Positions 1,201 through 62,035 of a stretch of DNA of 64,000 nucleotides are shown piece by piece (positions within the stretch are counted from its first letter, which is position 1; each line of letters begins with the position of its first letter). Location: the IMG/VR virus record IMGVR_UViG_3300001533_002564, positions 40,189 to 104,188 of that record. One strand, given 5' to 3'. Below the pieces are notes generated by a model, which searched no databases, was not told the DNA's origin, and saw only the letters and a list, made by a program, of their open reading frames with translations. Source of the stretch: a virus. Position numbers and translations under genes: made by a program.

Positions 1201-3621
1201 ATGACTGACGAACTTGATATTAATTTAGATTCTTCTGAAAAAAATGATGTTAGTTTAAATCTTAATTTAAATGAACAATCTAAAAGTGATGATTCTAATT
1301 TTCCAGAACACATTCCTTTAATACCTATTGATACACAAAGACAACAAGAAAAGGATGATGCAAGAAAATTAGCTAAAAAATTAAAAAAACAAGGAAAGAT
1401 TCAACCAATTATCATCACAAAAACTCGTGGTGTTAAAAAGGTTAGTGAATTAAATTTTACTGAACAAGAAGATGAAATTCTTCGTTGTGCAATGAATCCA
1501 ATTTATTTCATTGAAACATATTTAACAATTTTTGACCAAACACAAGGTGTTTCTGGTACAATTGTACCATTTAAATTATTTGACTTTCAAAAAGATTTAA
1601 TTAAATCATATCAAAACCATCGATTTGTTGTTGCTAATAAATATCGTCAGGCTGGTGTTAGTACAACAACATGTGCATATATTGCTTGGTATATAATGTT
1701 TAATCGAAATAGACAAGTTGCAATTGTTGCTGATAAATTAGAAACAGCCACTGGTGAATTAATGAGTGATGTTGTTGATTTTATTGATAGTTGTCCTGCG
1801 TGGCTTAGACCTAAAACTGGTAGAAATACTGAAAAGAATTTAAAAGATACTCAAAAACTTAAAATATATGATAATGATTCAAAATTAGGTGCATTCGCAT
1901 CTAAAAGTTTACGTGGTTATACACCAACATTATTATTTTGGGATGAAACTGCATGGGCAGAAAAAGGAAATGAATTTTGGACAGCAGCTTTACCATCATT
2001 AGTTACTGGTGGTCGTGCAATAATGGTTAGTACGCCTTCAGGACTTGATGCTGTTTTCTACAAAACATTTGATGGTGCAAGAAAAAATGAAAATAATTTC
2101 CATGCAGTTGAACTTTGGTGGTATAATGACCCAAGATATAATAAAGACTTGGTTTGGTTAAAAAATAAAGGTAAGAAAAATGAAATTACATTAGAAGATA
2201 ATGGTAGGTCTCATGAACAAAGAAAACAATTAGTTGAAGATGGTTGGGAAGCAAGTAACGCTTGGTTTGATATACAAGTGCGTAATGCTAATGGTGATAT
2301 GCGTAAAGTTGCACAAGAGTTATTGTGTGTTTATGGTAATGCATCATTAACTATTAGAAATAAAAAAACTGGTGAAATTGGAAAAATTAGTATTGAAAAT
2401 TTATATAAAAAATTAAAAGAGCAAAACAATTCTTCTGAGTATTTATATAAAAGTAAATTTATGAATAAAATAAAATTATTAAATAAGATATTATCGATTA
2501 ATATTGAAAAATATAGAATAAAAGGTGGGTTATCAATGTTTAATAAAGATTTTCCAAATTTAATTAATGTAGTTAATGAATATACTAAAGACATGCAAAT
2601 ATGTTCCATGAATAAAACATTATATGCAAAATTATTATTTTTAAAAAAATATTATTGTAATATTAACAATATCACAATAAATGATAAAATAATGGTTTTT
2701 GATAGAACCATAGGAGATTTTATTGAAAAATCAGATAACTCAGCAAAAAAATATTGGGATAATATAAATCAAACTATAAAAAACACCAATAAATTTTATA
2801 CTAAAGAAGAAACAATTGAACTCTTAAAAAATGATTATAAAAATTATTTAGGAAAATCAGGTAATAGAAAATTAATTTCCAAAGATATTAATTTATATTG
2901 TAGTGTTTATCATCACACCAAACACATGGATAATTTAAATAAAAATTTAAATAAATTTTCATATAGATTATTAATTTTAATTAATAATGTTAATATTTAT
3001 TGTGAAAAACACAATAAATTAAAACATTGGAAGTTCAATGCAGATAATGAATTGGTTATCGGGTGTGCACAATGTGAGCCTAAATATCCATCAAAAAATT
3101 GGTTTAAATTAAAATTTGGTGATGATTGGAGAAAGCATTATGAATTTAGAAAAAATAAGGTTAAATTAAATAAAACAAATAGTTTAGAATGGCATATTAA
3201 TAAATATGGTGATGTAGGCATTGAAAAATATGAAAAATATGTTTTAAAAAAAATGAAGACATTAACTAAATTAAAAGCAAATCGATATAGTAAAATTTCT
3301 CAAGAATTATTTTGGGAGTTATATGATTCAATTCCAGATAAAGAAGACACATATTTCCATAATTTAAATCATGAATATGTTATCCGAATACCAAAGAAAT
3401 ATAATCACGAAAATATAATAATGATGATAGATTTTAAACATAAAAATAAAATTATTGAATATAATGGAAATTATTGGCATAATAAAGAAAAGAATAATAT
3501 TAGATATTCAATTTTAAGAAAGATGGGTTATCAAATACTAATTATTACATCTGACGATTATAATCGAAATAAAAAACCTAAAGAAATTATCAATAAATGT
3601 CTTAAATTTTTAACATGTTAA
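1201..3621 (+). CDS. Terminase large subunit N-half + split-intein N-half + Vsr-like endonuclease
   Basis: Residues 1-375 are the ATPase half of a T4 gp17-type packaging motor. Visible motifs are a P-loop region K147-Y-R-Q-A-G-V-S-T155, Walker B L-L-F-W-D-E (244-249) and the coupling motif S-T-P-S-G (277-281). At Cys376 the reading frame enters an intein N-terminal block (C-V-Y-G-N-A-S-L...). After about 35 residues it runs on in frame into a roughly 395-residue endonuclease whose C-terminus resembles the Vsr fold (D744, I-E-Y-N-G-N-Y-W-H ending at H760, then G-Y-Q-I-L-I-I). The frame ends at a TAA that overlaps the start codon of the second half. The P-loop lacks the usual G-K-S/T lysine. 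By analogy with known split terminase inteins, the two polypeptides should be trans-spliced into a 700-residue terminase. Confidence 0.88.
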   Translation: MTDELDINLDSSEKNDVSLNLNLNEQSKSDDSNFPEHIPLIPIDTQRQQEKDDARKLAKKLKKQGKIQPIIITKTRGVKKVSELNFTEQEDEILRCAMNPIYFIETYLTIFDQTQGVSGTIVPFKLFDFQKDLIKSYQNHRFVVANKYRQAGVSTTTCAYIAWYIMFNRNRQVAIVADKLETATGELMSDVVDFIDSCPAWLRPKTGRNTEKNLKDTQKLKIYDNDSKLGAFASKSLRGYTPTLLFWDETAWAEKGNEFWTAALPSLVTGGRAIMVSTPSGLDAVFYKTFDGARKNENNFHAVELWWYNDPRYNKDLVWLKNKGKKNEITLEDNGRSHEQRKQLVEDGWEASNAWFDIQVRNANGDMRKVAQELLCVYGNASLTIRNKKTGEIGKISIENLYKKLKEQNNSSEYLYKSKFMNKIKLLNKILSINIEKYRIKGGLSMFNKDFPNLINVVNEYTKDMQICSMNKTLYAKLLFLKKYYCNINNITINDKIMVFDRTIGDFIEKSDNSAKKYWDNINQTIKNTNKFYTKEETIELLKNDYKNYLGKSGNRKLISKDINLYCSVYHHTKHMDNLNKNLNKFSYRLLILINNVNIYCEKHNKLKHWKFNADNELVIGCAQCEPKYPSKNWFKLKFGDDWRKHYEFRKNKVKLNKTNSLEWHINKYGDVGIEKYEKYVLKKMKTLTKLKANRYSKISQELFWELYDSIPDKEDTYFHNLNHEYVIRIPKKYNHENIIMMIDFKHKNKIIEYNGNYWHNKEKNNIRYSILRKMGYQILIITSDDYNRNKKPKEIINKCLKFLTC
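2326..2430 (+). other. Split intein N-fragment (IntN)
   Basis: It starts at Cys376 (C-V-Y-G-N) directly after the extein residues A-Q-E-L-L. The following region (K-I-S-I-E-N-L-Y-K-K-L) has the normal first-strand pattern of inteins and matches the length class (about 25-35 residues) of the atypically split AceL-TerL type. The 3' border is approximate. Block B is absent here and lies on the second polypeptide. Confidence 0.8.
2431..3621 (+). mobile_element. Vsr-like homing endonuclease region fused to IntN
   Basis: About 395 residues sit in frame behind IntN. A Cys pair zinc-like motif (C-A-Q-C near residue 626) is followed by a basic region and then by the Vsr-like nuclease end with Asp744, Glu753 and His760. 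Endonucleases of this family were described between the halves of fractured phage genes. Here the nuclease is not free-standing but continues the N-half frame. The 5' border is approximate. Confidence 0.65.
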
Positions 3622-3938
3622 TAAATACCGATTTTGAAATATTAAATTCGTCAGGTGAGTTCGTTGATTTTGCAGGTATTAGTAAAACAAAAAAAGATAT
3701 CGCATATAAGATTACTCTTGAAAATGATGATACAATTATTGTTAGTGAAGACCATGTATTTATTGCAGGTAATGTTAATGTTTTTGTTAAATCTATTGTA
3801 CCTTACGTATCATATTTAACTACAACTGATGGTGATTTTTTTGTTAAATCAATTGAGATTGTTGATGGGTGTGATTTTTATGATGTGATTGATACTGAAA
3901 ATGCTGAATATTTTGCAAATAATATATTAAATCATAAT
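3615..3938 (+). other. Split intein C-fragment (IntC)
   Basis: This is a 108-residue fragment with its own ATG, carrying block B (S-E-D-H), the C-terminal blocks (F-Y-D-V-I-D, Y-F-A-N-N-I-L) and the splice site H-N/C. The length is close to the 104-residue IntC of the AceL-TerL intein, and the insertion point in a terminase also agrees. Confidence 0.82.
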
Positions 3939-4916
3939 TGTTCTTTCCTTGGTTCAGGTGATAACTTTATTGCTAAAGAATATCTTAAAAGAATTCAAGA
4001 TAATGAAATTTTACCACCAATACGTCAAGAATATGTTGATAATAATATGTGGATTTGGGAAGAACCTGTTGTTGGAGAGAATTATATAATGGCAATGGAT
4101 GCTTCACCGGGTCATGGAGAAGATTTTTCAACATTAAATATGTTAAAAACTGTTGAAATTATTGAAGAAAAAGTTATTAATAAAAATGGTAAAATAAAAA
4201 AAGTAAAAATTAAACGACATAAAGTAGAACAGGTCGCTGAATATTATGGTAAAATAAGTCCACAATTACTTGCAGAAATTGCATATCAATATGGTAAAAG
4301 ATATAATAATGCATATGCTGTTATTGATATTACTGGTGGTCATGGTGTCCATACTGTTGAAAAGTTGCTTGAAATTGGTTATGATAATGTGCATCATGCT
4401 GAAATAACACATAAACCTACTAGAGATAGATTACAAGGTTATATCAAAAAAGGTCAAAAAACTATGTCTGATGGTGCTATATCGGCTGTTGATTTAATTC
4501 CCGGGTTTTACATCGGTAATAATCGTCCATCAATTTTACTTGAGATGCAAAGAGCAATTCATTTAGAAGATGTTATTATTAGGTCAAGTAGATTATTATC
4601 TGAATTAAAAACATTTATTACTGTCCCCGGAAATCGTGTAGCTGATCATAAACGTACATTTCATGATGATAGTATAATGGGTTTGGCAATTGGTTTATTT
4701 GTATTAAATTTTGATATGGCTAAATTCAAACAAAATAGAGGTATTAATGAAAAAATGATTAAAGGCATTCTTACCTTAAATGATATTGATGAAATAGGGA
4801 AAAATATAAAAAATTTAAAGAAACCAATGTTTGATAGAGATGAAGCAAATCCTCTAAATCCGTATGGTGCAAACTCATGGTTATTTAAAGAAATTAAAGA
4901 AACAAATAAAAGATAA
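3615..4916 (+). CDS. Split-intein C-half + terminase large subunit nuclease half
   Basis: This starts at an ATG that overlaps the stop of the first half by 7 bases in the -1 frame, so translation is probably coupled. Residues 1-108 are an intein C-part: N-T-D-F-E-I-L, block B S-E-D-H47, and the end N-I-L-N-H-N108, followed by Cys109 as the +1 extein residue. Residues 109-433 are the RNase-H-like nuclease domain of a gp17-type terminase. It shows M-A-M-D162 (first acidic residue), A-V-I-D-I-T-G-G and the C-terminal H-D-D-S-I-M-G. Joined to residues 1-375 of the first half, the junction reads A-Q-E-L-L/C-S-F-L-G-S-G, which fits the family. Confidence 0.88.
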   Translation: MLINTDFEILNSSGEFVDFAGISKTKKDIAYKITLENDDTIIVSEDHVFIAGNVNVFVKSIVPYVSYLTTTDGDFFVKSIEIVDGCDFYDVIDTENAEYFANNILNHNCSFLGSGDNFIAKEYLKRIQDNEILPPIRQEYVDNNMWIWEEPVVGENYIMAMDASPGHGEDFSTLNMLKTVEIIEEKVINKNGKIKKVKIKRHKVEQVAEYYGKISPQLLAEIAYQYGKRYNNAYAVIDITGGHGVHTVEKLLEIGYDNVHHAEITHKPTRDRLQGYIKKGQKTMSDGAISAVDLIPGFYIGNNRPSILLEMQRAIHLEDVIIRSSRLLSELKTFITVPGNRVADHKRTFHDDSIMGLAIGLFVLNFDMAKFKQNRGINEKMIKGILTLNDIDEIGKNIKNLKKPMFDRDEANPLNPYGANSWLFKEIKETNKR

Positions 4917-18160: not shown

Positions 18161-18191
18161 AAAAGAGTTGGAATGTTCCAACTCTTTTTTT
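18161..18191 (+). terminator. Terminator after major capsid gene
   Basis: AAAAGAGTTGGAA/TTCCAACTCTTTT is a 13-pair stem with a two-base loop and a T-tract, 22 bases after the capsid stop. The hairpin also rules out the in-frame ATG at 18173 as a start for the next gene. Confidence 0.92.
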
Positions 18192-18220
18192 ATTTTTGTA
18201 TTGCATTAACACATATCTTT

Positions 18221-19678
18221 ATGGAAGCATATCAATTTAAAATAAGAAAACAAAAATCTCAATCAGAAAAAATTGATTTTGATTTAAATCAAATTACGCT
18301 TAAAAATTCTGAAATTAAATTAATTGATAAAGAAACAGCAAAAAAAATAATTATTGAATATGAATGGTTAGAATCAATGCCATTTATAGTTAAATATTGT
18401 TTTGGTATTTATTTTAACGTTAATAATAAAAAACAAATTGGTGGTGTATTAGTTTTTAGTAATGATTATGCCGATAATACTGGTGTCTGGGATAAATATG
18501 GTTTTACTGATAAATTAATATTATTAAGTAGAGGAGTTTGTTTATGGTGGACACCAAAAAATACAGCATCATATTTTATATCAAAAGCTACTGATTGGTT
18601 AAAAAAGAATACTAAATATAGAATAATAACAGCAACAGTAGACCCTGCTGCTGGTGAAGTTGGAACAATATATCAATCATTAAATTGGAAATATGTTGGT
18701 GTTATGAGTGGAAATTATTATCATAAAAAAGAATCTAAGAGATTTGGAGTCATAATTGATGGAAAATTGAGAGGTAGTAGGTGGTGTAGAAGTAATTTAG
18801 GTTGTATGAAGAAAGAAGTTATTTTATCGAAATACCCTGATGCTAAGTTTGTTCATCAATATAGAAAAAAACGATATTTTTATTTTATCGATACTAAAGC
18901 AAATAATAAAAAACATCTAAATGCAATTAAACATCTTCTTTTACTCTATCCTAAAAGGAATCAAGATATAATTGGTATCATTTATTTAATTAGGAATAAA
19001 GTAAATGATAAAAAATATGTCGGTCAAACAATTCGTGCATTAAGTGATAGAATTAATGACTATAAAAGAGGTTTTGGTAATGATTATTTAAATAATTCAT
19101 TTAATAAATATGGTTGGGATAATTTCGAATTTTCAGTTATTGATTCAGCACAAACTATTGAAGAACTAAATTCGAAAGAAATTAAATACATTTTAAAATA
19201 TAATACAACTAACAAAGAATTTGGATATAATATTGAAATAGGTGGTTGTAATTCAATTCCAAATATCGAAACTTTAGAAAAAATGTCCAAATCTCATTTA
19301 GGTATTAAACAAACAGATGAATGGATTAATAAAAGAATAGCTAAAGCAGGAACTGATAATGCTAAAAAATATGGTAAAATAAAGACTGATGATGAAAAAC
19401 AAGAACTTAGTCTAAAATCACCAAAATATTGGTTAGGTAAAAATCATGATATTGAGACAAGAGAAAAAATAAGTAAAACAAAAAAAGAAAGGGGTTTATC
19501 TGTTAAACAAAAAGAAGTGTTATGTAAGAAAGTATATAAAATAAATATTATTGATAATAATACAATTGATTATGATTCAACAAAACATGCTTCAATAATT
19601 GAAGGTGTAAATCAATCAACAATATCAAGATGGTGTAAAAACAAAAAAACTATTAATGGATTTTTATGGAAATATTAA
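18221..19678 (+). CDS. Mom-like DNA-modification protein fused to a GIY-YIG endonuclease
   Basis: The start is set at M-E-A-Y-Q-F (18221), after the capsid terminator. Residues 1-240 resemble the Mom family of GNAT-like DNA adenine modifiers: E-Y-E-W-L near residue 42, G-G-V-L-V-F, L-S-R-G-V, and the signature V-G-T-I-Y-Q-S-L-N-W-K-Y-V-G. The Mom part ends near L-L-L-L-Y-P-K-R. The frame then continues without stop into a GIY-YIG nuclease (I-G-I-I-Y-L-I-R, K-Y-V-G-Q-T), NUMOD-type linkers and a C-terminal DNA-binding helix-turn-helix-like motif. The product would modify phage DNA against restriction. The fusion may be a homing insertion exactly at the gene end, or a bifunctional protein. Confidence 0.7.
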   Translation: MEAYQFKIRKQKSQSEKIDFDLNQITLKNSEIKLIDKETAKKIIIEYEWLESMPFIVKYCFGIYFNVNNKKQIGGVLVFSNDYADNTGVWDKYGFTDKLILLSRGVCLWWTPKNTASYFISKATDWLKKNTKYRIITATVDPAAGEVGTIYQSLNWKYVGVMSGNYYHKKESKRFGVIIDGKLRGSRWCRSNLGCMKKEVILSKYPDAKFVHQYRKKRYFYFIDTKANNKKHLNAIKHLLLLYPKRNQDIIGIIYLIRNKVNDKKYVGQTIRALSDRINDYKRGFGNDYLNNSFNKYGWDNFEFSVIDSAQTIEELNSKEIKYILKYNTTNKEFGYNIEIGGCNSIPNIETLEKMSKSHLGIKQTDEWINKRIAKAGTDNAKKYGKIKTDDEKQELSLKSPKYWLGKNHDIETREKISKTKKERGLSVKQKEVLCKKVYKINIIDNNTIDYDSTKHASIIEGVNQSTISRWCKNKKTINGFLWKY

Positions 19679-20837: not shown

Positions 20838-23348
20838 TTAATCTTCATCTGACCAATTATGGTCATAAATTAAGTCTAAACGACTTCTTGTTATTGCGAC
20901 ATATTCCAAGTTTTTTTCTTGAGCAAATTGCCAAGGTTTTGCTGTTTGCATTGGTAATAAATCTGGTCTGATAATAAAAACTCTATCTGTTTCTAATCCT
21001 TTAATTTTATGTACTGTACTTAATACAATTCCCTGTATTTCATCAGTAAAAATTGTTTTTATTTTATATTTTAAATCCAATATGCTATCAGAAATTCTAG
21101 CAAGAAATAATAATGTCATTACTTTATCTTCAAGTGCTGTATATCCACTATGGTCATTTGGGTTTAAAATGCCTTCTTTTTTTAAATCTTTTCTAAATGA
21201 CTGAAGTTCTGTTTCCCAAAAACTTTTTAATTTTTCAATATTATTAATTTTACCAATTAATTCAATTAAATGAACTCCAATATCACTTCCCTTAATAATT
21301 GCTTTTTTACGTTGTGTAAGAAATTCAAAAAAGAGTTTTACTAGTGGCATTGTTGTTCTACAAAGTACAAAATCACCACTACGTGCTTCTTCTAAAACAT
21401 TACCATCTCTAACACTGCCTTCTGGAGCATCTGGAAGTGCTTTTATATTAGGAACAATCTCTTGCGCTTTTCTAATAACTGCTTGTGAACATCTAAATGA
21501 TACTGAAAGTGGTAATATTTTAGTATTAGGAAATTTCTCAAACCACTGAAAACTTTTTTCATCAGCAGCATTAAAACCATAAATTCCTTGAAAGAAATCT
21601 CCGACACTAATTAATCTACCTTCAAGTTTTTTTGTTGTTCGATTACGTTTTAAAACCTTTTCAATTATTCTAATCTGACAACGATTTAAATCCTGTACTT
21701 CATCAACAAAAACATAGTCTTGTGGAAAAAACCAAATACTATTATCAATTGCAGGTAGAAAAACCATATCTGTATAATCAAATGTTTTTCTATCTGTTGT
21801 CATAAAATCCAATACTTTTAAGATACGTTTAATATCTTTTGGTTTATTAAGTGGAATATCATAGCGTTCTGATATATATGGAATAAATTCTGGTTTTATT
21901 GTTAAAGTCAATCTACATAAATTACAGAGTTTCTTCATGTTATTGAGGTATATCGAAATTTCTTCTTCAGATTTTAATTCATCATCCAATCCCCATGATT
22001 TCGATTTTTTTAAAATAACCTTATCTGCCTTAAATTCATCAAATTGGATTTTATCACCATATTTTCTTTTAATTGCACCCATACCCAAACCATATGTAGT
22101 ATAACATCTAACGTGTTTAGGTAATTTTGTACCAAGTTCTTCTTTAATATGTTTATTAAACGCCAAAAACATTATTGATTTATCAACAGGTAATAATTTA
22201 ACTGCTTCAACAATTGTACTAGTATTGTGTGTTATTGTGAAATCACCTAATAAAAATCTTCCATTACCGTCTAATGTAAAACCATAATATTTTCCAATAC
22301 CAATATTTTTAACCTTAAATCCTGTTCTTAAAACAGATTTTATTTGTTTTCTTGCTTCACATTTCTTTCTAACTAATAAACAAGGTAGATTTTCAAATGA
22401 ACCTGTTATTATTATTCTCCAATAATTACCAATAAAGTTTAGTAATTTAATTCTCCCCTTTTTAGGTATGATATATGCACCAAAACCCAAACTTCTTGCA
22501 AGAAATAATAAATCTTTTGCAAATTCAGTATGTTTTGTTGTAATCTCATAATATTTATTATTTGAATGTCCATCACTATCAATGATTCCAGCCAATAGTT
22601 TTAATCTATTCTCTTTTGAATTAATTAAATAATTTTTAGGTATTGAAAAACTACCATTAGTATTTAAGCATTTCTTAAACTCATCTCTTACTATATTATT
22701 TACTTTTCTCCCGTTAAAATTAGGTGTGGTTAATGAGACAGTTATTAATTTTTTTTGATATTCATTGAATTTTGGTGTAATATTTTTATATTTAATATTA
22801 CCTAAATATTCTAAGATGGGTTTTTCATTAACATTTACTGAAATTGTCGGTGACCCATTTTTTTTTGTTCCATCACCTAACCATAAACCCATTAAATATG
22901 GGTCAATTTTTATTGTCTGTGTCTTAAAATCAACCCCAACTCTTTGTAGTCTTGCATACTTGAAATTACCGTTTGGGTATTTAGGGTAATTTAATTCATT
23001 TAATGGAATATCCAATAATTTCTTTTTTTGTTCATGATGGTGAGTTAAAACATGAACATCATTACATACCCATTCATCCCCTTTTGTTGGTATCACCTTA
23101 AATAAATCACCAAAACCATTATTAGTTTTTAATACTTTTCTCGGTGTTGAATCATCACCAATTAATAAATCACCAATTTTAATATCTTGAACAAATTTAA
23201 TTGTACCATCATACATTAATATTGGAGTATTAATTCCTAGACATTTTCCTGTACCTGCGTATGCCTTAATCAAAATATTTTCAGGTCTTTTTCTCGTGAA
23301 CATGAATATTCTTTCCTGTTCTGGTGTTGCTATAATCATACTATCCAA
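20838..23348 (-). CDS. UvrD/Dda-type SF1 DNA helicase interrupted by an intein
   Basis: The 836-residue precursor consists of extein residues 1-35 ending in the Walker A start A-G-T-G-K35, an intein at residues 36-375, and extein residues 376-836 resuming with T-S-T. The spliced helicase would be 496 residues, close to T4 Dda (439). Further helicase motifs are V-F-V-D-E-V-Q-D (motif II), F-R-C-S (motif IV), T-V-H-K-I-K-G-L-E (motif V) and Y-V-A-I-T-R-S-R (motif VI). It would unwind DNA in replication or recombination. Without splicing the P-loop is destroyed, so activity depends on it. Confidence 0.9.
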   Translation of the reverse strand: MDSMIIATPEQERIFMFTRKRPENILIKAYAGTGKCLGINTPILMYDGTIKFVQDIKIGDLLIGDDSTPRKVLKTNNGFGDLFKVIPTKGDEWVCNDVHVLTHHHEQKKKLLDIPLNELNYPKYPNGNFKYARLQRVGVDFKTQTIKIDPYLMGLWLGDGTKKNGSPTISVNVNEKPILEYLGNIKYKNITPKFNEYQKKLITVSLTTPNFNGRKVNNIVRDEFKKCLNTNGSFSIPKNYLINSKENRLKLLAGIIDSDGHSNNKYYEITTKHTEFAKDLLFLARSLGFGAYIIPKKGRIKLLNFIGNYWRIIITGSFENLPCLLVRKKCEARKQIKSVLRTGFKVKNIGIGKYYGFTLDGNGRFLLGDFTITHNTSTIVEAVKLLPVDKSIMFLAFNKHIKEELGTKLPKHVRCYTTYGLGMGAIKRKYGDKIQFDEFKADKVILKKSKSWGLDDELKSEEEISIYLNNMKKLCNLCRLTLTIKPEFIPYISERYDIPLNKPKDIKRILKVLDFMTTDRKTFDYTDMVFLPAIDNSIWFFPQDYVFVDEVQDLNRCQIRIIEKVLKRNRTTKKLEGRLISVGDFFQGIYGFNAADEKSFQWFEKFPNTKILPLSVSFRCSQAVIRKAQEIVPNIKALPDAPEGSVRDGNVLEEARSGDFVLCRTTMPLVKLFFEFLTQRKKAIIKGSDIGVHLIELIGKINNIEKLKSFWETELQSFRKDLKKEGILNPNDHSGYTALEDKVMTLLFLARISDSILDLKYKIKTIFTDEIQGIVLSTVHKIKGLETDRVFIIRPDLLPMQTAKPWQFAQEKNLEYVAITRSRLDLIYDHNWSDED
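22224..23243 (-). mobile_element. LAGLIDADG intein in the helicase P-loop
   Basis: This 340-residue intein has Cys1 (C-L-G-I-N-T-P-I-L-M), a block B region with H-H-H around residue 103 of the precursor, two LAGLIDADG motifs (L-M-G-L-W-L-G-D-G, 152-160, and L-A-G-I-I-D-S-D-G, 252-260) and the end T-I-T-H-N375 followed by Thr376. All splice residues are present, so both splicing and homing activity look intact. Confidence 0.92.
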
Positions 23349-25377: not shown

Positions 25378-25941
25378 ATGAAAAAGAAAAAACAGTTCAA
25401 AAATATTGAAGATGAAAGAATGGGGTTATTTATGAATAATAATTCTTTTGATTTGGATATTATGTATGGTAGAAATTTTTTACAAACAGATAATGCACAA
25501 ACAGTTATTATTCATAAAATAAATCTTATTGAAACTAAATCACATGCTTTATATGGTCAATCAAAAACTAAAGATAAAAAATTTATGACACCAGTAACTA
25601 TAAATGTTATGGTTAATATTGAAGATAGTAAACAAGAATATTATGGTAATAGTCAGGGTGGAATATCACGTGATGATAGTGGAAGTATTAGTTTTGGTGT
25701 TTATCTCGAAGAATTAAAAGAAAAACAGATTGAAATTGATAGAGGTGATATTATTGAATACAATATGAGTGGTGAAAAAAATAGATATTACGAAGTTGAA
25801 AATGCAAATAATGTTACTGATGAAACAAAAAAAACAATTGGAGGATTCAAAAGTTACTGGAAAAAAGTTACTGGAGTTCCCGTAAAATCCGATTCAGTCC
25901 CATTTTATGATAATGAAGAAACTGGTGAATCAATGGTCTAA
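25378..25941 (+). CDS. Neck protein (T4 gp14-like)
   Basis: The 187 residues include H-A-L-Y-G-Q-S, V-N-I-E-D, S-I-S-F-G-V-Y-L-E-E-L and a G-D-I-I-E-Y...Y-Y-E-V-E segment, which fit the gp14 neck-protein pattern. It would form the ring to which the tail attaches. Its last 12 bases overlap tail-to-tail with a GIY-YIG gene, and a second, diverged copy of its C-terminal end lies beyond that gene at 26997-27071. The present C-terminus may therefore have been brought in with the endonuclease. Confidence 0.65.
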   Translation: MKKKKQFKNIEDERMGLFMNNNSFDLDIMYGRNFLQTDNAQTVIIHKINLIETKSHALYGQSKTKDKKFMTPVTINVMVNIEDSKQEYYGNSQGGISRDDSGSISFGVYLEELKEKQIEIDRGDIIEYNMSGEKNRYYEVENANNVTDETKKTIGGFKSYWKKVTGVPVKSDSVPFYDNEETGESMV

Positions 25942-26970
25942 ATATATGTAATTAGTGAAATTATTACTTCTTAATCTATCCCAAATTAATTGTTGTTTCA
26001 ATTTAAGTTTATTTGATGCATCAGTTAATGAATGATATTTAACATCATCAATTTTAAACGGTTTATTATTTAATGCGTAATTATTACCCTTATTTTTTTT
26101 TGATATTTTTTTATTTATTTCTTCAATTGTTATTAATTCATTAATATTTTTTGGTTTGTTTTTATAAAAATAATTCATAAATGTTATAGTATTACTATTA
26201 ATACGATAAATTAGTGTTGCGTATTTAATTTTCAATTTTTGTGATGCTATTTTAGGGTTAATATATTCAACATCATTAATGACAACAGGATTGTTTTTAT
26301 ATGTTTGTTTCTGATTTTTTTTACGACAATCTTTATGATATTTAGCATATTTACTAATTTCTTTTCCGCATCCGCATATACAATAATATTTTTTCTTAAT
26401 AAATGGTTTATAAAAATATATTTTATGTTTTATAGAATCATATTCACCTATTTTTGGATTGTTTTCGTAATACCAGTTTTTATTTTTCCAATTTTTAAGT
26501 TTACTTGAAATTGATTTAATATCAACACATAATTCATTAGCAGCATCTTGTAATTTATCATATCTAATATTATTAATATAAAATGGTTTAGTGTGTTTAC
26601 CTAAATTACCAACACTCATTTTAAGACGAATTTCTTTTTGATTTGGATGTATTGATAAATCATAATTATTTCCTGAAGCAATTCGTGAAATATTATATAC
26701 GTTTTTCCAATTACTTATATTATTTAAATAATTTTGTTCTATCAATAAAACATCACTTTTTTTACACTTTTCTAATAATTCAACAATAAAAACATTTTTA
26801 CCATATTTATTATATGCATTTTGTAAATGTATACTATGATGACAATTTCTTTTTAATAATTCAAAATGTTTACGTATTCTTATTTTTATGTTATATGATG
26901 AACCAACATAATATTTATTATTGATAACATTAGTTATTTTATAAATTCCAGACACATTTAAATCTTTCAT
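25930..26970 (-). CDS. GIY-YIG homing endonuclease with zinc-finger-like motif
   Basis: The 346 residues comprise the GIY-YIG core (G-I-Y-K-I-T-N-V, Y-Y-V-G-S-S, then H-L-Q-N-A-Y-N-K-Y-G and the catalytic E in F-I-V-E-L-L-E). A basic linker and a Cys/His cluster follow (Y-Y-C-I-C-G-C-G, K-D-C), then three repeats of a DNA-binding motif (V-I-N-D-V-E-Y-I-N type). It lies antisense at the end of the gp14-like gene with its own late box. A stub of the old gp14 end remains on its far side. Confidence 0.88.
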   Translation of the reverse strand: MKDLNVSGIYKITNVINNKYYVGSSYNIKIRIRKHFELLKRNCHHSIHLQNAYNKYGKNVFIVELLEKCKKSDVLLIEQNYLNNISNWKNVYNISRIASGNNYDLSIHPNQKEIRLKMSVGNLGKHTKPFYINNIRYDKLQDAANELCVDIKSISSKLKNWKNKNWYYENNPKIGEYDSIKHKIYFYKPFIKKKYYCICGCGKEISKYAKYHKDCRKKNQKQTYKNNPVVINDVEYINPKIASQKLKIKYATLIYRINSNTITFMNYFYKNKPKNINELITIEEINKKISKKNKGNNYALNNKPFKIDDVKYHSLTDASNKLKLKQQLIWDRLRSNNFTNYIYLDH

Positions 26971-37334: not shown

Positions 37335-37343
37335 TATAAATAC
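37335..37343 (-). promoter_or_regulatory. Late-type box GTATTTATA
   Basis: Minus strand TAGTATTTATAGTAAA lies 15 bases before the ATG at 37320. It is divergent from the sheath promoter at 37540; the 200 bases between the two boxes hold nothing else that I can identify. Confidence 0.6.
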
Positions 37344-52277: not shown

Positions 52278-53249
52278 ATGGAAAATAATCAAGTACCTTC
52301 AAAAGAACCAATTGGTGATTTATTAAAAAAATATAAACAAATGCATAATGACGGAACATTACCACCACCAGAATCAGTACAATCTGTACCGATTGATAAT
52401 GTACCAACAGAACCACCTGTGTCTGCACCCTTACCTTCATCATCAATTCCATCAGCAGCATCAACTTTTAATGCTGAAGAATATGAAAATATTATGAATA
52501 AAGAAACCGACCCAGATTTAATGACTTCATATGAAATAGTTAAATTACCATCAAAAGGATTATTTTATAAAAATAGAATTTCAGAAGTAAGTGTTGAATA
52601 CATGACATCTAAAGATGAAGATTTACTTACTACACCATCACTAATTGAAAATGGTACTGTTATAGATGTTTTATTAAAGAGAAAAATTAAAACAAAAGGT
52701 GTTGATATTAATAATTTACTTGCTGGTGATAGAAATGCTATAATATTATTTTTACGTAGTTCAAGTTATGGTTCAGAATATACTGTACAAGTACCTGACC
52801 CAAGAACAAATAAATCATTTAAAACAACTGTTGATTTACTTAAATTAAAATATAAAAAAGTTAATGAATTACCTGATGAAGAAGGACATTTTACAATAAA
52901 AATTCCAATGCGAAAGAAAACTGTTAAATTTAAATTATTAACTTCTGGTGAAGAAAACATTTTACTTAAACAAGCTGAAGCACATAAAGATGCTTATAAT
53001 CAAGAATTTAGTGAATACACCACTCTTAAATTAAAATCACATATAGTTAGTATTGATGGTAAAACTGACAGAACTTATATAAGTAAATTTGTTGATGCTA
53101 TGCCAGCAATGGATGCTTTAACTATTCGTACAAAAATATTAGATATAAGTCCTGATGTCGATATGAATTATGAATTTACAGCTAAAGACGGTTATAAATT
53201 TAATGCTGAATTATCTGTTGGTATAGATTTTTTTTTCCCAAACATCTAG
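52278..53249 (+). CDS. Baseplate hub/tape-measure assembly protein (T4 gp26-like), zero frame
   Basis: The 323 residues comprise a Pro/Ser-rich linker to about residue 72, then the gp26-type domain: I-V-K-L-P-S-K-G-L-F-Y, S-V-E-Y-M-T-S-K-D-E-D-L-L-T, G-D-R-N-A-I-I-L-F-L-R-S-S-S-Y-G. The frame ends D-F-F-F-P-N-I-TAG. Just before that stop is the slippery heptamer T-TTT-TTC (53231-53237) in the correct phase. A -1 shift would append a 63-residue tail. It stands immediately before the tape measure gene, where phages encode frameshifted tail chaperones. Confidence 0.8.
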   Translation: MENNQVPSKEPIGDLLKKYKQMHNDGTLPPPESVQSVPIDNVPTEPPVSAPLPSSSIPSAASTFNAEEYENIMNKETDPDLMTSYEIVKLPSKGLFYKNRISEVSVEYMTSKDEDLLTTPSLIENGTVIDVLLKRKIKTKGVDINNLLAGDRNAIILFLRSSSYGSEYTVQVPDPRTNKSFKTTVDLLKLKYKKVNELPDEEGHFTIKIPMRKKTVKFKLLTSGEENILLKQAEAHKDAYNQEFSEYTTLKLKSHIVSIDGKTDRTYISKFVDAMPAMDALTIRTKILDISPDVDMNYEFTAKDGYKFNAELSVGIDFFFPNI

Positions 53250-53255
53250 CAGGTG
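53231..53255 (+). promoter_or_regulatory. Programmed -1 ribosomal frameshift site
   Basis: The heptamer T TTT TTC is read as TTT TTC in frame zero and TTT TTT after slipping back one base. Five bases later a small stem (CATCT/AGGTG, loop AGC, 53243-53255) may add a stimulus, though it is weak. The zero-frame TAG follows within 10 bases. Confidence 0.65.
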
Positions 53256-53428
53256 AATATAAAAAAATGGTCGATGAAGAAATTTATATATTGACCAATC
53301 ATGCTAATTTTCAAGCAGAATATATTGAAAGAATTCCTATATATAGAAGAAGACATTTTTTATTTTTATTAAATAAAGAAAATGAAGAAATAGAAAAAAT
53401 AAGAGATAGAGAAAAAAATAAAAGATAA
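53237..53428 (+). CDS. -1 frame extension of the gp26-like protein
   Basis: After the shift the sequence reads P-K-H-L-A-G-E-Y-K-K-M-V-D-E-E-I-Y-I-L-T, then a helical charged end (Y-R-R-R-H-F-L-F-L-L) and stops at TAA 53426-53428. It recalls short gp51-type hub assembly proteins. The fused product would have about 383 residues. An internal ATG (53267) could also give a free 53-residue protein, so frameshift and reinitiation are both possible. Confidence 0.65.
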   Translation, partial: PKHLAGEYKKMVDEEIYILTNHANFQAEYIERIPIYRRRHFLFLLNKENEEIEKIRDREKNKR

Positions 53429-53440
53429 AAAATAAATACA

Positions 53441-53470
53441 AAAAACTGAGATAATAAAACTCAGTTTTTT
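53441..53470 (+). terminator. Terminator before tape measure gene
   Basis: AAAAACTGAG pairs with CTCAGTTTTT around a 9-base loop, with a T-tract. The last T directly abuts the next late promoter box. Confidence 0.82.
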
Positions 53471-53479
53471 GTATTTATA
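53471..53479 (+). promoter_or_regulatory. Late-type box before tape measure gene
   Basis: TTGTATTTATATTATAA starts at the base after the terminator's T-tract and lies 18 bases before the ATG at 53498. Confidence 0.65.
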
Positions 53480-53497: not shown

Positions 53498-56026
53498 ATG
53501 GCTGATAAAATAGATGCTAAATATTTACAAGAACTTTTAAAATATCAAAAGAAACTAAATAATTCAATGGGTAGTGCTATAAATATCCAAGATAAAATTA
53601 GAATAAATGAAGAATTAATTAGTAATGAAAAACGTATTCAAAATGAATATGAAAATGCATCTAAATTATCAAAAAAAGAAATATCTAATTTAACTAATGA
53701 TGAACAGAAATTATTAAATGATATTATTAATAAAGAAAAGTCCATTAATTCCGAATTAGATAAACAAATAAAAAGAAGACAGAATACTGTTAATTTAGCA
53801 AAACTATTAACTCAACAATTAAAAATAGGTTGGAAATATCTTCAAGACCAAGATAAAATAATTAAAAGTACTAATCTTAGTCTTGGTATGTCAGGAGCAA
53901 AAGCAGTTGCAATGCGTGATGCATTTGAAAAATCTGCTGGATACGTTACTAGATTAGGTGGAACAATAGGTGATATTCAAAGTGTTATGCAGGGATATGC
54001 CGATGAAACTGGTCGTGCTCGTGTAATGAGTGCTGAAATGGTTAAAGATATAACTAATATTGGAAAAGGTACTACACTTGGAATTGAAAACGCAACTAAA
54101 TTAGGAGCACAATTTGAATTAATGGGATATGATGCCAGAAGAACAATGGAATTTGTTCAAGGTGTTGTTGATACAACAGAAAGAATGGGTGTTAATACTA
54201 CAAAAGTACTTAAAGTAGTTAATGATAATTTTAAAAAATTAAATACATATACTTTTCAACAAGGTGTTAAAGGTTTTGCTGAAATGGCAAGCTATGCCGA
54301 AAAATTTAAAATTGATATTTCAGATGCACTTAATGCTGCTGATGTTGCACGTAGTCTTGAAGGTGCAATTGATTTAGCTGCACAACTACAGGTAATGGGT
54401 GGTGAATTTGCAAAAACAGACCCATTTGAAATGTTATTCCTTAGTCGTAATGACCCAGCAAAATTTACTGAAAAAATTGCTGATATGACTAAAGGTGTTG
54501 TTAGTTTTAGAAAAGTAACTGATAGTGCTGGAAAAACAGTATTTGAAAAATTTATTAGTCCTGCTGACCGTGATAGACTTGCTGCTGTTGCAAAATCATT
54601 AGGTATGGAAGCCAGTGCTTTAACTGAAATAGCACAAAGACAGGCTGAAATTCAAAAAATGCGTCAACAAATGAGTGGTTTAGGTTTATCTAAAGAACAA
54701 AAAGAAATTATTGAAGGCGCAGCACATTTTGATACAAAATCAGGTAAATTTCAAGTACAACTTGGTCAGACTATGCATAATATTGGTGAATTAACATCAA
54801 AACAAGCAGAAAAATTTAAAGTTGAACAAAAATTATTAGAAGAACGTGCTAAACAAGCAATGACATTTGACGAAACCTTTAAAGCAACAATTGAAACACT
54901 AAAAGCAAGTCTCTTACCATTATTAAAACAAGTAAATTGGTTACTTGACCATACAATCAAACCAATTGCTGACCTTGCATCAAAAGGTTGGGGTGTAGGT
55001 GGTGCTGCTGTTGCATTAATTAGTGCAGCACTTGTATGGAAAGGAGTAACTAATAAATTAGGAAATGTTGTTAGTAAATGGGTTCAAAATAGTGGTGGAA
55101 AAGGTATTGCTGGTGCTTTTGGTAAAGTCAATCGTGGTGGTAGTTTAACTGAAACATTATCTACTCAAGGAAGTGAATCAGGACTATTCGAACAACGAAA
55201 AGGTATTGGAATGGGTGCTGCTGCAAAAGGACAGGGTATGGAAAGTCTTGGTAAAGGTGTTGGTATTGGTGCTGCTGGAGCAGGTGTTGGTGCTGGTATT
55301 ATGATGGGAGCAAAAGGTATTGGTGAATTAGCTCAAGCAATTAAAAATGTTGATGTTGATAAATTAAAGGTAATGAATGGTACTATAGCAATATTAGGTG
55401 TAACAATGGTAGGAATATTAGTACCAGCAATCTTTGCAATGGGTGGTGCAGGTACTGCTGGTGCAGTAGGTTTACTTGCAGTAGGTGCAGCAGCAGTTGG
55501 AATTGGTTTCGGTATTAATCTTGCAACAAAAGGTATTGGTAAAATGAGTGAAGGTATTGCTAAAATGAATAAAACTGGTGGAGGTGCTGGTAAAGAATTA
55601 CTTGCTATTGCTGGTGGTATTGGTGCAATTACTGTTGCTATGGCTGGTGGTGGTATATTAGGTATTGCTATATTTAATAGACAATTGAAAAAAATGAATG
55701 AAAATATTGGTGGAATTCAAAAAATTGGTGCTGCATTTGCTAATATTGAAGCAGTATTATCTGGAAGTAAAGATGATTTTATTGCTGTTCAAAATGCAGT
55801 TACTGCAATTGGAAATACTAATATTAAAAGTGGTGGAATGTTTTCAGAATTAGCTAAATTATTAAAAAATCCACTTCAAGTAGAATTCAAAGATAAAAAT
55901 GTTGCCGTTGTTAGTAATATTACAATGGAAATTGATGGTAAAAAATTATTTAATCAATCATATAGTGTTTCTGGTGCAGTTCAAAAAGAACAAAATCTAA
56001 GACATAATAAAGGAGATTTATCATAA
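53498..56026 (+). CDS. Tail tape measure protein
   Basis: The 842 residues have an N-terminal charged coiled coil (residues 1-110), a long helical middle, and a Gly/Ala-rich hydrophobic C-terminal half with several membrane-like stretches (about residues 500-530, 585-610, 620-680 and 700-730: A-A-V-A-L-I-S-A-A-L-V, M-V-G-I-L-V-P-A-I-F). This combination, and its position after the frameshifted gp26-like gene, mark the protein that sets tail length and passes into the host envelope at injection. At 0.15 nm per residue it predicts a tail of about 125 nm. Confidence 0.85.
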   Translation: MADKIDAKYLQELLKYQKKLNNSMGSAINIQDKIRINEELISNEKRIQNEYENASKLSKKEISNLTNDEQKLLNDIINKEKSINSELDKQIKRRQNTVNLAKLLTQQLKIGWKYLQDQDKIIKSTNLSLGMSGAKAVAMRDAFEKSAGYVTRLGGTIGDIQSVMQGYADETGRARVMSAEMVKDITNIGKGTTLGIENATKLGAQFELMGYDARRTMEFVQGVVDTTERMGVNTTKVLKVVNDNFKKLNTYTFQQGVKGFAEMASYAEKFKIDISDALNAADVARSLEGAIDLAAQLQVMGGEFAKTDPFEMLFLSRNDPAKFTEKIADMTKGVVSFRKVTDSAGKTVFEKFISPADRDRLAAVAKSLGMEASALTEIAQRQAEIQKMRQQMSGLGLSKEQKEIIEGAAHFDTKSGKFQVQLGQTMHNIGELTSKQAEKFKVEQKLLEERAKQAMTFDETFKATIETLKASLLPLLKQVNWLLDHTIKPIADLASKGWGVGGAAVALISAALVWKGVTNKLGNVVSKWVQNSGGKGIAGAFGKVNRGGSLTETLSTQGSESGLFEQRKGIGMGAAAKGQGMESLGKGVGIGAAGAGVGAGIMMGAKGIGELAQAIKNVDVDKLKVMNGTIAILGVTMVGILVPAIFAMGGAGTAGAVGLLAVGAAAVGIGFGINLATKGIGKMSEGIAKMNKTGGGAGKELLAIAGGIGAITVAMAGGGILGIAIFNRQLKKMNENIGGIQKIGAAFANIEAVLSGSKDDFIAVQNAVTAIGNTNIKSGGMFSELAKLLKNPLQVEFKDKNVAVVSNITMEIDGKKLFNQSYSVSGAVQKEQNLRHNKGDLS

Positions 56027-61012: not shown

Positions 61013-62035
61013 ATGAAAATATGGACGAATGAAGAAAAAGAATTTTTAACCAATTATTTTTCAATAAGTGGAACTAATTTTTGTATAAATGAACTAAATA
61101 GGAGTTGGTCATCGGTTATTGGAATGGCTACTAAATTAGGATTAAAAGCAAAAAAATCTAATTCATATACTAATAATGAATTAGATTTTTTAATAAGAAA
61201 TTATTCATCTCATGGTGTTGAATATTGTATGAATTATTTAGGAAGAACAAAACAAGGAATATGTGCGAAAGCACATAAATTAAATTTATATGTTGATGAT
61301 AATACTAAATCACAAAATATTAGTGAGAAAAGGAAAATTAATAACTATAAAAAATATGATGTTAATAATATAATTAATATTAATGATAAATATGTTATTT
61401 ATTTTTTAGGTTATTTGTGGGCAGATGGTAATTTAAATAAAACAAATTCATATTTAACATCAATTAATTTAATTAAAGATGATGCTGAGTTTTTGTATGA
61501 AATAATTAATTTATTTAGTTCTGGGTGGACAATTGGTGGTGAAATAAAAAAATATTGGAAAAACGATAAAGGTAAAATCAAACAAGCAAAAAATCAAAGA
61601 ACAATACGATGTTATTCACAAGAATTATATAAATTTTTATCCGAAAATGATTATAAAAATAAATCTGATGTTAATTTTTATAAAATTTGGAATAAATTTC
61701 CAAATAAATTTAAGTCATATTTTTTGTTAGGCTTATTTGATGGTGATGGTCATTTTAATTATCAATTTAGAAAAAACAAATATCATTCTGGAGAATTTGT
61801 AGTTAGTGGTTTATATAATTATGATTGGAGTATTTTAGAAAATTATTTTAATAATAATAATATTAAATATTCAATATATAGACTTAATGTTAAATTAGGT
61901 CAAGTATCAAGAATTATAGTAAGAAAGAAAGAATCATTAATTATATTATTTGATTTACTTTATCCTAATGAATTTCATGGTTTAGAAAGAAAATATTTAA
62001 AATTTTTAAAATATTATGAAAAAACGAAAAAATAA
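61013..62035 (+). CDS. LAGLIDADG homing endonuclease
   Basis: The 340 residues have two N-terminal HTH-like repeats (W-T-N-E-E-K-E-F-L and Y-T-N-N-E-L-D-F-L, each followed by S-x-x-G-x-x-Y/F-C) that probably bind DNA. The catalytic part carries two LAGLIDADG helices: Y-F-L-G-Y-L-W-A-D-G and F-L-L-G-L-F-D-G-D-G. It looks intact. Its last 20 bases overlap the start of the complete glycosyltransferase gene, and a stub of that gene lies on its left. Confidence 0.9.
   Translation: MKIWTNEEKEFLTNYFSISGTNFCINELNRSWSSVIGMATKLGLKAKKSNSYTNNELDFLIRNYSSHGVEYCMNYLGRTKQGICAKAHKLNLYVDDNTKSQNISEKRKINNYKKYDVNNIININDKYVIYFLGYLWADGNLNKTNSYLTSINLIKDDAEFLYEIINLFSSGWTIGGEIKKYWKNDKGKIKQAKNQRTIRCYSQELYKFLSENDYKNKSDVNFYKIWNKFPNKFKSYFLLGLFDGDGHFNYQFRKNKYHSGEFVVSGLYNYDWSILENYFNNNNIKYSIYRLNVKLGQVSRIIVRKKESLIILFDLLYPNEFHGLERKYLKFLKYYEKTKK

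Follow-up and report, generated by a model that had tools for sequence, protein, structure and literature searches.

The window analysed here, a stretch of 64,000 nt forming part of a 104-kb viral contig, carries on its forward strand a gp26-like ORF of 323 aa (52278..53249, ATG at 52278) that ends in the zero frame as GGT ATA GAT TTT TTT TTC CCA AAC ATC TAG (53220-53249). Its terminal T tract contains the heptamer T_TTT_TTC (53231..53237, forward strand), which, as the original prediction had it, stands in the correct phase for a tandem -1 slip when counted from the ATG at 52278. The nearby zero-frame stop that was part of that prediction is also present, as TAG (53247..53249, forward strand), although it follows the heptamer by 9 nt rather than by the 10 originally given. 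After a slip, the sequence would be read as CCC AAA CAT CTA GCA GGT GAA TAT AAA AAA ATG..., bypassing the TAG and continuing for 63 codons and a stop (53237..53428, forward strand; the last codon ends at 53425 and the stop occupies 53426-53428), so that the -1 frame is open as far as a putative tape-measure gene of 842 aa (53498..56026, forward strand). The predicted long form, which joins the zero-frame part to the -1 extension, has 383 aa; the residues predicted across the junction are D-F-F-F-P-K-H-L, and the junction peptide falls in the region DFFFPKHLAGEYK.

A search of viral contigs yielded 77 loci, and the 74 sequences that span the junction, that of the window included, reduce to 54 that are non-redundant. 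These relatives are jumbo phages, up to 366 kb in size, from many metagenomes. None of the 54 non-redundant relatives (74 loci) has lost the slippery run or the near stop, and the junction consensus is GAY TTT TTT T(TC/CC/CT) CC... throughout. The run reads TTT-TTT-TTC in 51 of the 54 and TTT-TTT-TCN in the other three (L037, L038 and L062, the third codon being TCC in two and TCT in one); in these exceptions T_TTT_TTT, one codon upstream, permits the same -1 slip, the same frame is reached, and a near-identical protein, D-F-F-F-(P/S), is encoded. Conservation of the heptamer among relatives had been proposed as a check on the original prediction, and it is found to be kept, or moved by one codon, in 54 of 54. 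Counted from the third codon of the run, the distance to the zero-frame stop is 9 nt in 53 of these and 12 nt in one. Phe codon usage would lead one to expect TTT TTT TTC at a frequency of 0.125 per lineage; 51 of the 54 have TTC as third codon, yet these genes use TTT four times as often as TTC (535 vs 126).

Past the zero-frame stop, the -1 frame of the relatives extends for 57-71 codons. Over 48 ungapped sequences and 40 codons it contains no stop at all, whereas the zero frame has 91 and the +1 frame 224, and in the same set the synonymous share of codon differences is 64% in the -1 frame, 12% in the zero frame and 6% in the +1 frame. Pairwise differences per site at codon positions 1, 2 and 3 of the -1 frame are 0.19, 0.06 and 0.42. 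By these comparative measures the region beyond the zero-frame stop is coding and is read in the -1 frame, and the earlier impression that its 63 codons look coding has held up, in that 53237-53425 is free of stops in the window and under purifying selection among relatives.

Since a homopolymer sits at the junction, an error of sequencing or assembly might be suspected, or a gene in decay that an indel in the homopolymer has split; this account is refuted by the comparison, with the same junction recurring across many separate data sets, at 74 loci, and strong purifying selection acting on the -1 frame, and we give it a negligible chance. The downstream ORF might otherwise be a separate gene, started at the internal ATG that encodes residue 14 of the -1 ORF (53267..53269, forward strand). 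This codon is ATG in 48 of the 54 relatives, and a stretch AGGTGA stands about 10 nt 5' of it. However, the model of the -1 domain is a confident one of three helices (pLDDT 92.5), the first spanning residues 5-25, so that a start at residue 14, inside that helix, would cut the domain. Conservation in the -1 frame sets in at the slip site and takes in the residues ahead of the ATG, two members have no NTG codon of any kind up to residue 16, and the conserved slippery run would be left unexplained by a separate gene. Furthermore, the first 8 codons of the -1 ORF include no ATG, GTG or TTG in any of the 54 relatives, which argues that the whole extra domain is obtainable only by fusion. We consider independent initiation very improbable as the source of the domain, while an additional minor product may arise from the ATG at 53267. 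What the clade displays is the combination characteristic of frameshifted chaperones, namely a conserved slippery site near the 3' end of the gene and an open alternative frame that has no start of its own.

The same fusion could in principle be obtained from an edited mRNA, if RNA polymerase were to add a T on the T9 tract or drop two. Homopolymers of 8-9 T can slip, and with tracts of T9 in 49 and T8 in five of the 54 relatives there is room for a transcriptional share. On the other hand, the T run at the homologous site of cyanophage-type loci is only 6 in 81 of 82, with the ribosomal heptamer in phase in all 82; at the present locus the heptamer and the encoded amino acids suffice to explain the conserved bases, and the outermost T, that of GAT, is replaced (GAC) in 2 of the 54. 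Because of the in-phase heptamer kept with a 6-T run in cyanophage-type loci, and because heptamer and amino acids account for the conserved bases here, we prefer a ribosomal slip and infer that it is the ribosome, not RNA polymerase, that slips; transcriptional slippage is an unlikely explanation of the fusion. The programmed -1 frameshift originally predicted thus has comparative support from the run, the near stop, the selected -1 frame and the lack of an early start codon, and we regard it as highly probable, from the sequences compared, that a T4-type tail assembly chaperone is made here in a short (323 aa) and a long (383 aa) form by -1 ribosomal frameshifting.

A short hairpin beginning five bases downstream had been included in the original prediction as well. 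A weak 5-bp hairpin can indeed be drawn 5 nt past the heptamer (53243..53255, forward strand), and it pairs in 83% of cells among relatives, but its covariation among them is no better than that of shuffles, and it is unsupported as a conserved element. RNAalifold predicted no consensus structure for the junction of the relatives, and an Rfam scan of the junction returned a single match at chance level (24.9 bits vs a gathering score of 41.2). A second possible hairpin (53268..53297, forward strand), 30 nt past the heptamer and overlapping the internal ATG, has C-G replaced by U-A in 15 sequences, with none of 500 shuffles as high in a comparison that leaves relatedness uncontrolled; this exchange falls at synonymous positions. 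Consensus folding and covariation revealed no convincing conserved hairpin downstream that might serve as a stimulator. Not every bacterial frameshift site requires a stimulatory structure.

The N part of the protein is a member of Pfam PF12322 (T4_baseplate, gp26), with an E value of 3.8e-9 and 37 bits against a curated cut-off of 24.5, in agreement with the gp26-type domain that had been proposed, and it also matches PHROG 150 (baseplate hub; E 1.7e-9). An AlphaFold2 model of residues 76-323 (pLDDT 90.5) retrieves many phage baseplate-hub/gp26 models. When the N-part fold was compared with 350,542 PDB chains, the first match was the HK97 tail assembly chaperone 2ob9, at a weak level (E 1.2, prob 0.54); a sequence search for solved structures found none.

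The extra domain required more sensitive comparisons, as tBLASTn of the -1 domain in annotated phages gave nothing credible and profile methods were needed. PHROG 634 ('baseplate hub assembly catalyst', gp51) is matched by 2 of 14 members of the -1 domain (best E 0.00057). T4 gp51 consists of a gp26-like domain followed by a C-terminal domain, and its N part matches T4 gp26 by profile at 99.7%. The -1 domain of cyanophages matches the C-terminus of T4 gp51 at 97.4%, and the -1 domain of this clade matches the corresponding domain of the Mel-JY01 group, likewise by profile, at 97.4%. A joint profile, compared with the set formed by cyanophages and the T4 gp51 C-terminus, reaches 95.9% probability, against 0.3% for a reversed-sequence control. 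The link to gp51 rests on these intermediate families, because in a pairwise profile comparison the extra domain of this clade alone reaches only 27% against T4 gp51. By way of PHROG 634 and the joint profile, the gp51-like tail of the original prediction is nevertheless sustained, the extra domain matching the T4 gp51 C-terminus as a putative homologue.

The placement of the gene just before a tape measure is also supported. The next ORF adjoins the chaperone gene in relatives, and its assignment as a putative tape measure is made from this position and from a family profile: that of the neighbouring proteins matches, at 97.1%, a set in which tape measures annotated in Flavobacterium and SP-15 phages are included and in which the window's own row is a 1092-aa ORF and not the 842-aa one. 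The 842-aa protein alone gave no PHROG match and no Pfam match above cut-off. Past the -1 stop and ahead of the tape-measure gene, a terminator-like hairpin with a 17-bp stem and a 9-nt loop can be read from the sequence (53434..53476, forward strand); in most relatives only its right arm, CTCGGTCTTTT, is found in the intergenic stretch examined. A promoter-like motif, GTATTTATA, is located 27 nt 5' of the tape-measure start (53471..53479, forward strand). With these two elements between them, the chaperone and tape-measure genes may be transcribed separately.

The motif in its form GTATTTATAnnAAA recurs in the window, for example at 551, 7026, 24215, 31392 and 53471 on the forward strand and at 37343, 28963 and 26992 on the reverse strand. 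Exact GTATTTATA stands 12-60 nt upstream of 11 of the 61 ORFs of at least 90 aa, a placement seen for 0.4% of random positions, and the copies lie mostly 22-28 nt ahead of an ATG; GTATTTATAnnAAA is probably a late promoter of the phage. A copy of the GTATTTAT type also precedes the tape-measure gene in those relatives whose intergenic stretch was examined. As judged by eye from the translations, the window contains, in addition, many apparent intein and homing-endonuclease insertions (1201-4916, 20838-23348, 18173-19678, 25930-26970 and 61013-62035, among others), including insertions in the terminase gene and in one helicase gene.

Outside this clade, all 82 cyanophage-type loci have T_TTT_TTY ahead of the -1 domain, and the two occur together in S-RIM8, a KVP40-type phage, PhiW-14, ZPAH1, Melnitz and Pseudomonas MIJ3. 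Two of these, the KVP40-type phage and PhiW-14, have an ATG that overlaps the stop, and a coupled separate start is therefore possible there. Among cultured relatives the extension locus is unannotated or only partly annotated. Cyanophage S-RIM8 (a Synechococcus phage, L103) resembles the present locus in having T_TTT_TTC just ahead of the gp26 stop, with a T run of 6 rather than 9; its annotated 'gp51' (2732-2869) starts from an internal ATG, leaves out the beginning of the -1 domain, and covers the -1 ORF in its inner part alone.

The domain is found in the +1 frame in the Mel-JY01 group, where TTT TTT TGG CCT is exact in 75 of 82 loci (one of the seven others being an incomplete locus). The +1 site of this sister clade, TTT/CTT-TGG-C, is exemplified by Microcystis Mel-JY01 and Flavobacterium immuto, the latter with CTT TGG C, and the extension is likewise in the +1 frame in SP-15, LIS04 and GXN1. 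We also considered a -2 slip in the sister clade; re-pairing after such a slip would be poor at the CTT TGG C of immuto. A shift of +1 fits these sequences better than one of -2 and is the more probable, since the immuto site resembles CTT TGA C, the site of the bacterial RF2 gene. In the sister-type chaperones (L080-L083, L085, L086 and L193-L272), with TTT TTT TGG CCT or CTT TGG C in the Mel-JY01 group, the gp51-like extension in the +1 frame is unannotated or only partly covered.

Separate genes with no slippery run, an arrangement that would speak against a programmed shift, are absent from the clade of the window and occur only in far relatives. Thus, the heptamer was not found in the Ackermannviridae loci, which have separate genes (with a TAATG overlap in VAP7), and in T4 the short and long forms are separate paralogous genes, gp26 and gp51, with no frameshift. 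A tree of the N part places this clade inside the +1 lineages, as the sister of the Mel-JY01 group; deep branches are uncertain, and the well-supported ones require a minimum of two changes for '+1' and of three for '-1'. The nesting of a -1 clade among +1 lineages would imply that the direction of the shift has flipped, and it seems probable that a single family of T4-type chaperones has repeatedly changed the mode by which short and long forms are made, through -1 shifts, +1 shifts, separate genes and duplicated genes. In the part of the literature covered, no report of a change of direction within the family was found.

The events at the junction can be pictured as follows. Most ribosomes would terminate at the TAG at 53247 and release the short form, TAC-N, of 323 aa. 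A minority, with TTT in the P site and TTC in the A site of T_TTT_TTC, would slip back by one base, the slipped tRNAs re-pairing with TTT TTT, and would bypass the stop and add the 63-residue three-helix domain to give the long form, TAC-NC, of 383 aa. On the model of lambda gpG/gpGT, the N domain might coat the tape-measure protein encoded by the next gene, the few long molecules might recruit tail-tube subunits through their extra domain, and both forms would depart before the tail is completed. This division of labour between the two forms is suggested by the analogy, and the efficiency of slippage and the binding partners are likewise what we infer.

The frameshift in lambda gpG/gpGT and other siphovirus chaperones was described by Xu 2004 and is reviewed in PMC5009743, where tail chaperone frameshifting is called widely conserved 'except T4'. 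As cited in PMC10885494 and PMC12846349, Vladimirov, Gautam and Davidson 2022 (Virology 566:9-15) identified T4-like chaperone genes; the former source attributes to that study T4-like phages with one short gene and one long fusion gene, and the latter poly-T runs as known -1 signals in T4-like TAC-N genes. The concept of a frameshifted chaperone is already published for T4-like phages, and the present locus is a new example rather than a new mechanism. It shares with T4 gp26/gp51 the Pfam family of its N part, a putatively homologous C-terminal domain and a proposed role, but here one gene would yield both forms, whereas T4 uses two paralogous genes and no frameshift. From lambda gpG/gpGT it differs in its slippery site; it is likened to that system by gene position and frameshift layout, and the fold match to the HK97 chaperone is weak. 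In Pseudomonas phage Adele (Vandenendeviridae/Andersonviridae, GTTTTT; PMC12846349), a myovirus chaperone likewise combines a -1 site of the poly-T kind with a C-terminal extension that is unannotated; that locus belongs to other phage families and is likened to ours by site and layout.

These findings add an uncharacterised clade of jumbo phages to those with frameshifted chaperones, and its junction is conserved enough for the long product to be annotated with confidence; in related genes, current annotations give the short product, as 'baseplate hub'. From this perspective T4 looks less exceptional than it does in PMC5009743, with its gp26 and gp51 corresponding to the short and long forms, respectively. 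The adjacent sister clades with -1 and +1 shifts provide a natural test of how the direction of a recoding signal can change while its product is kept.
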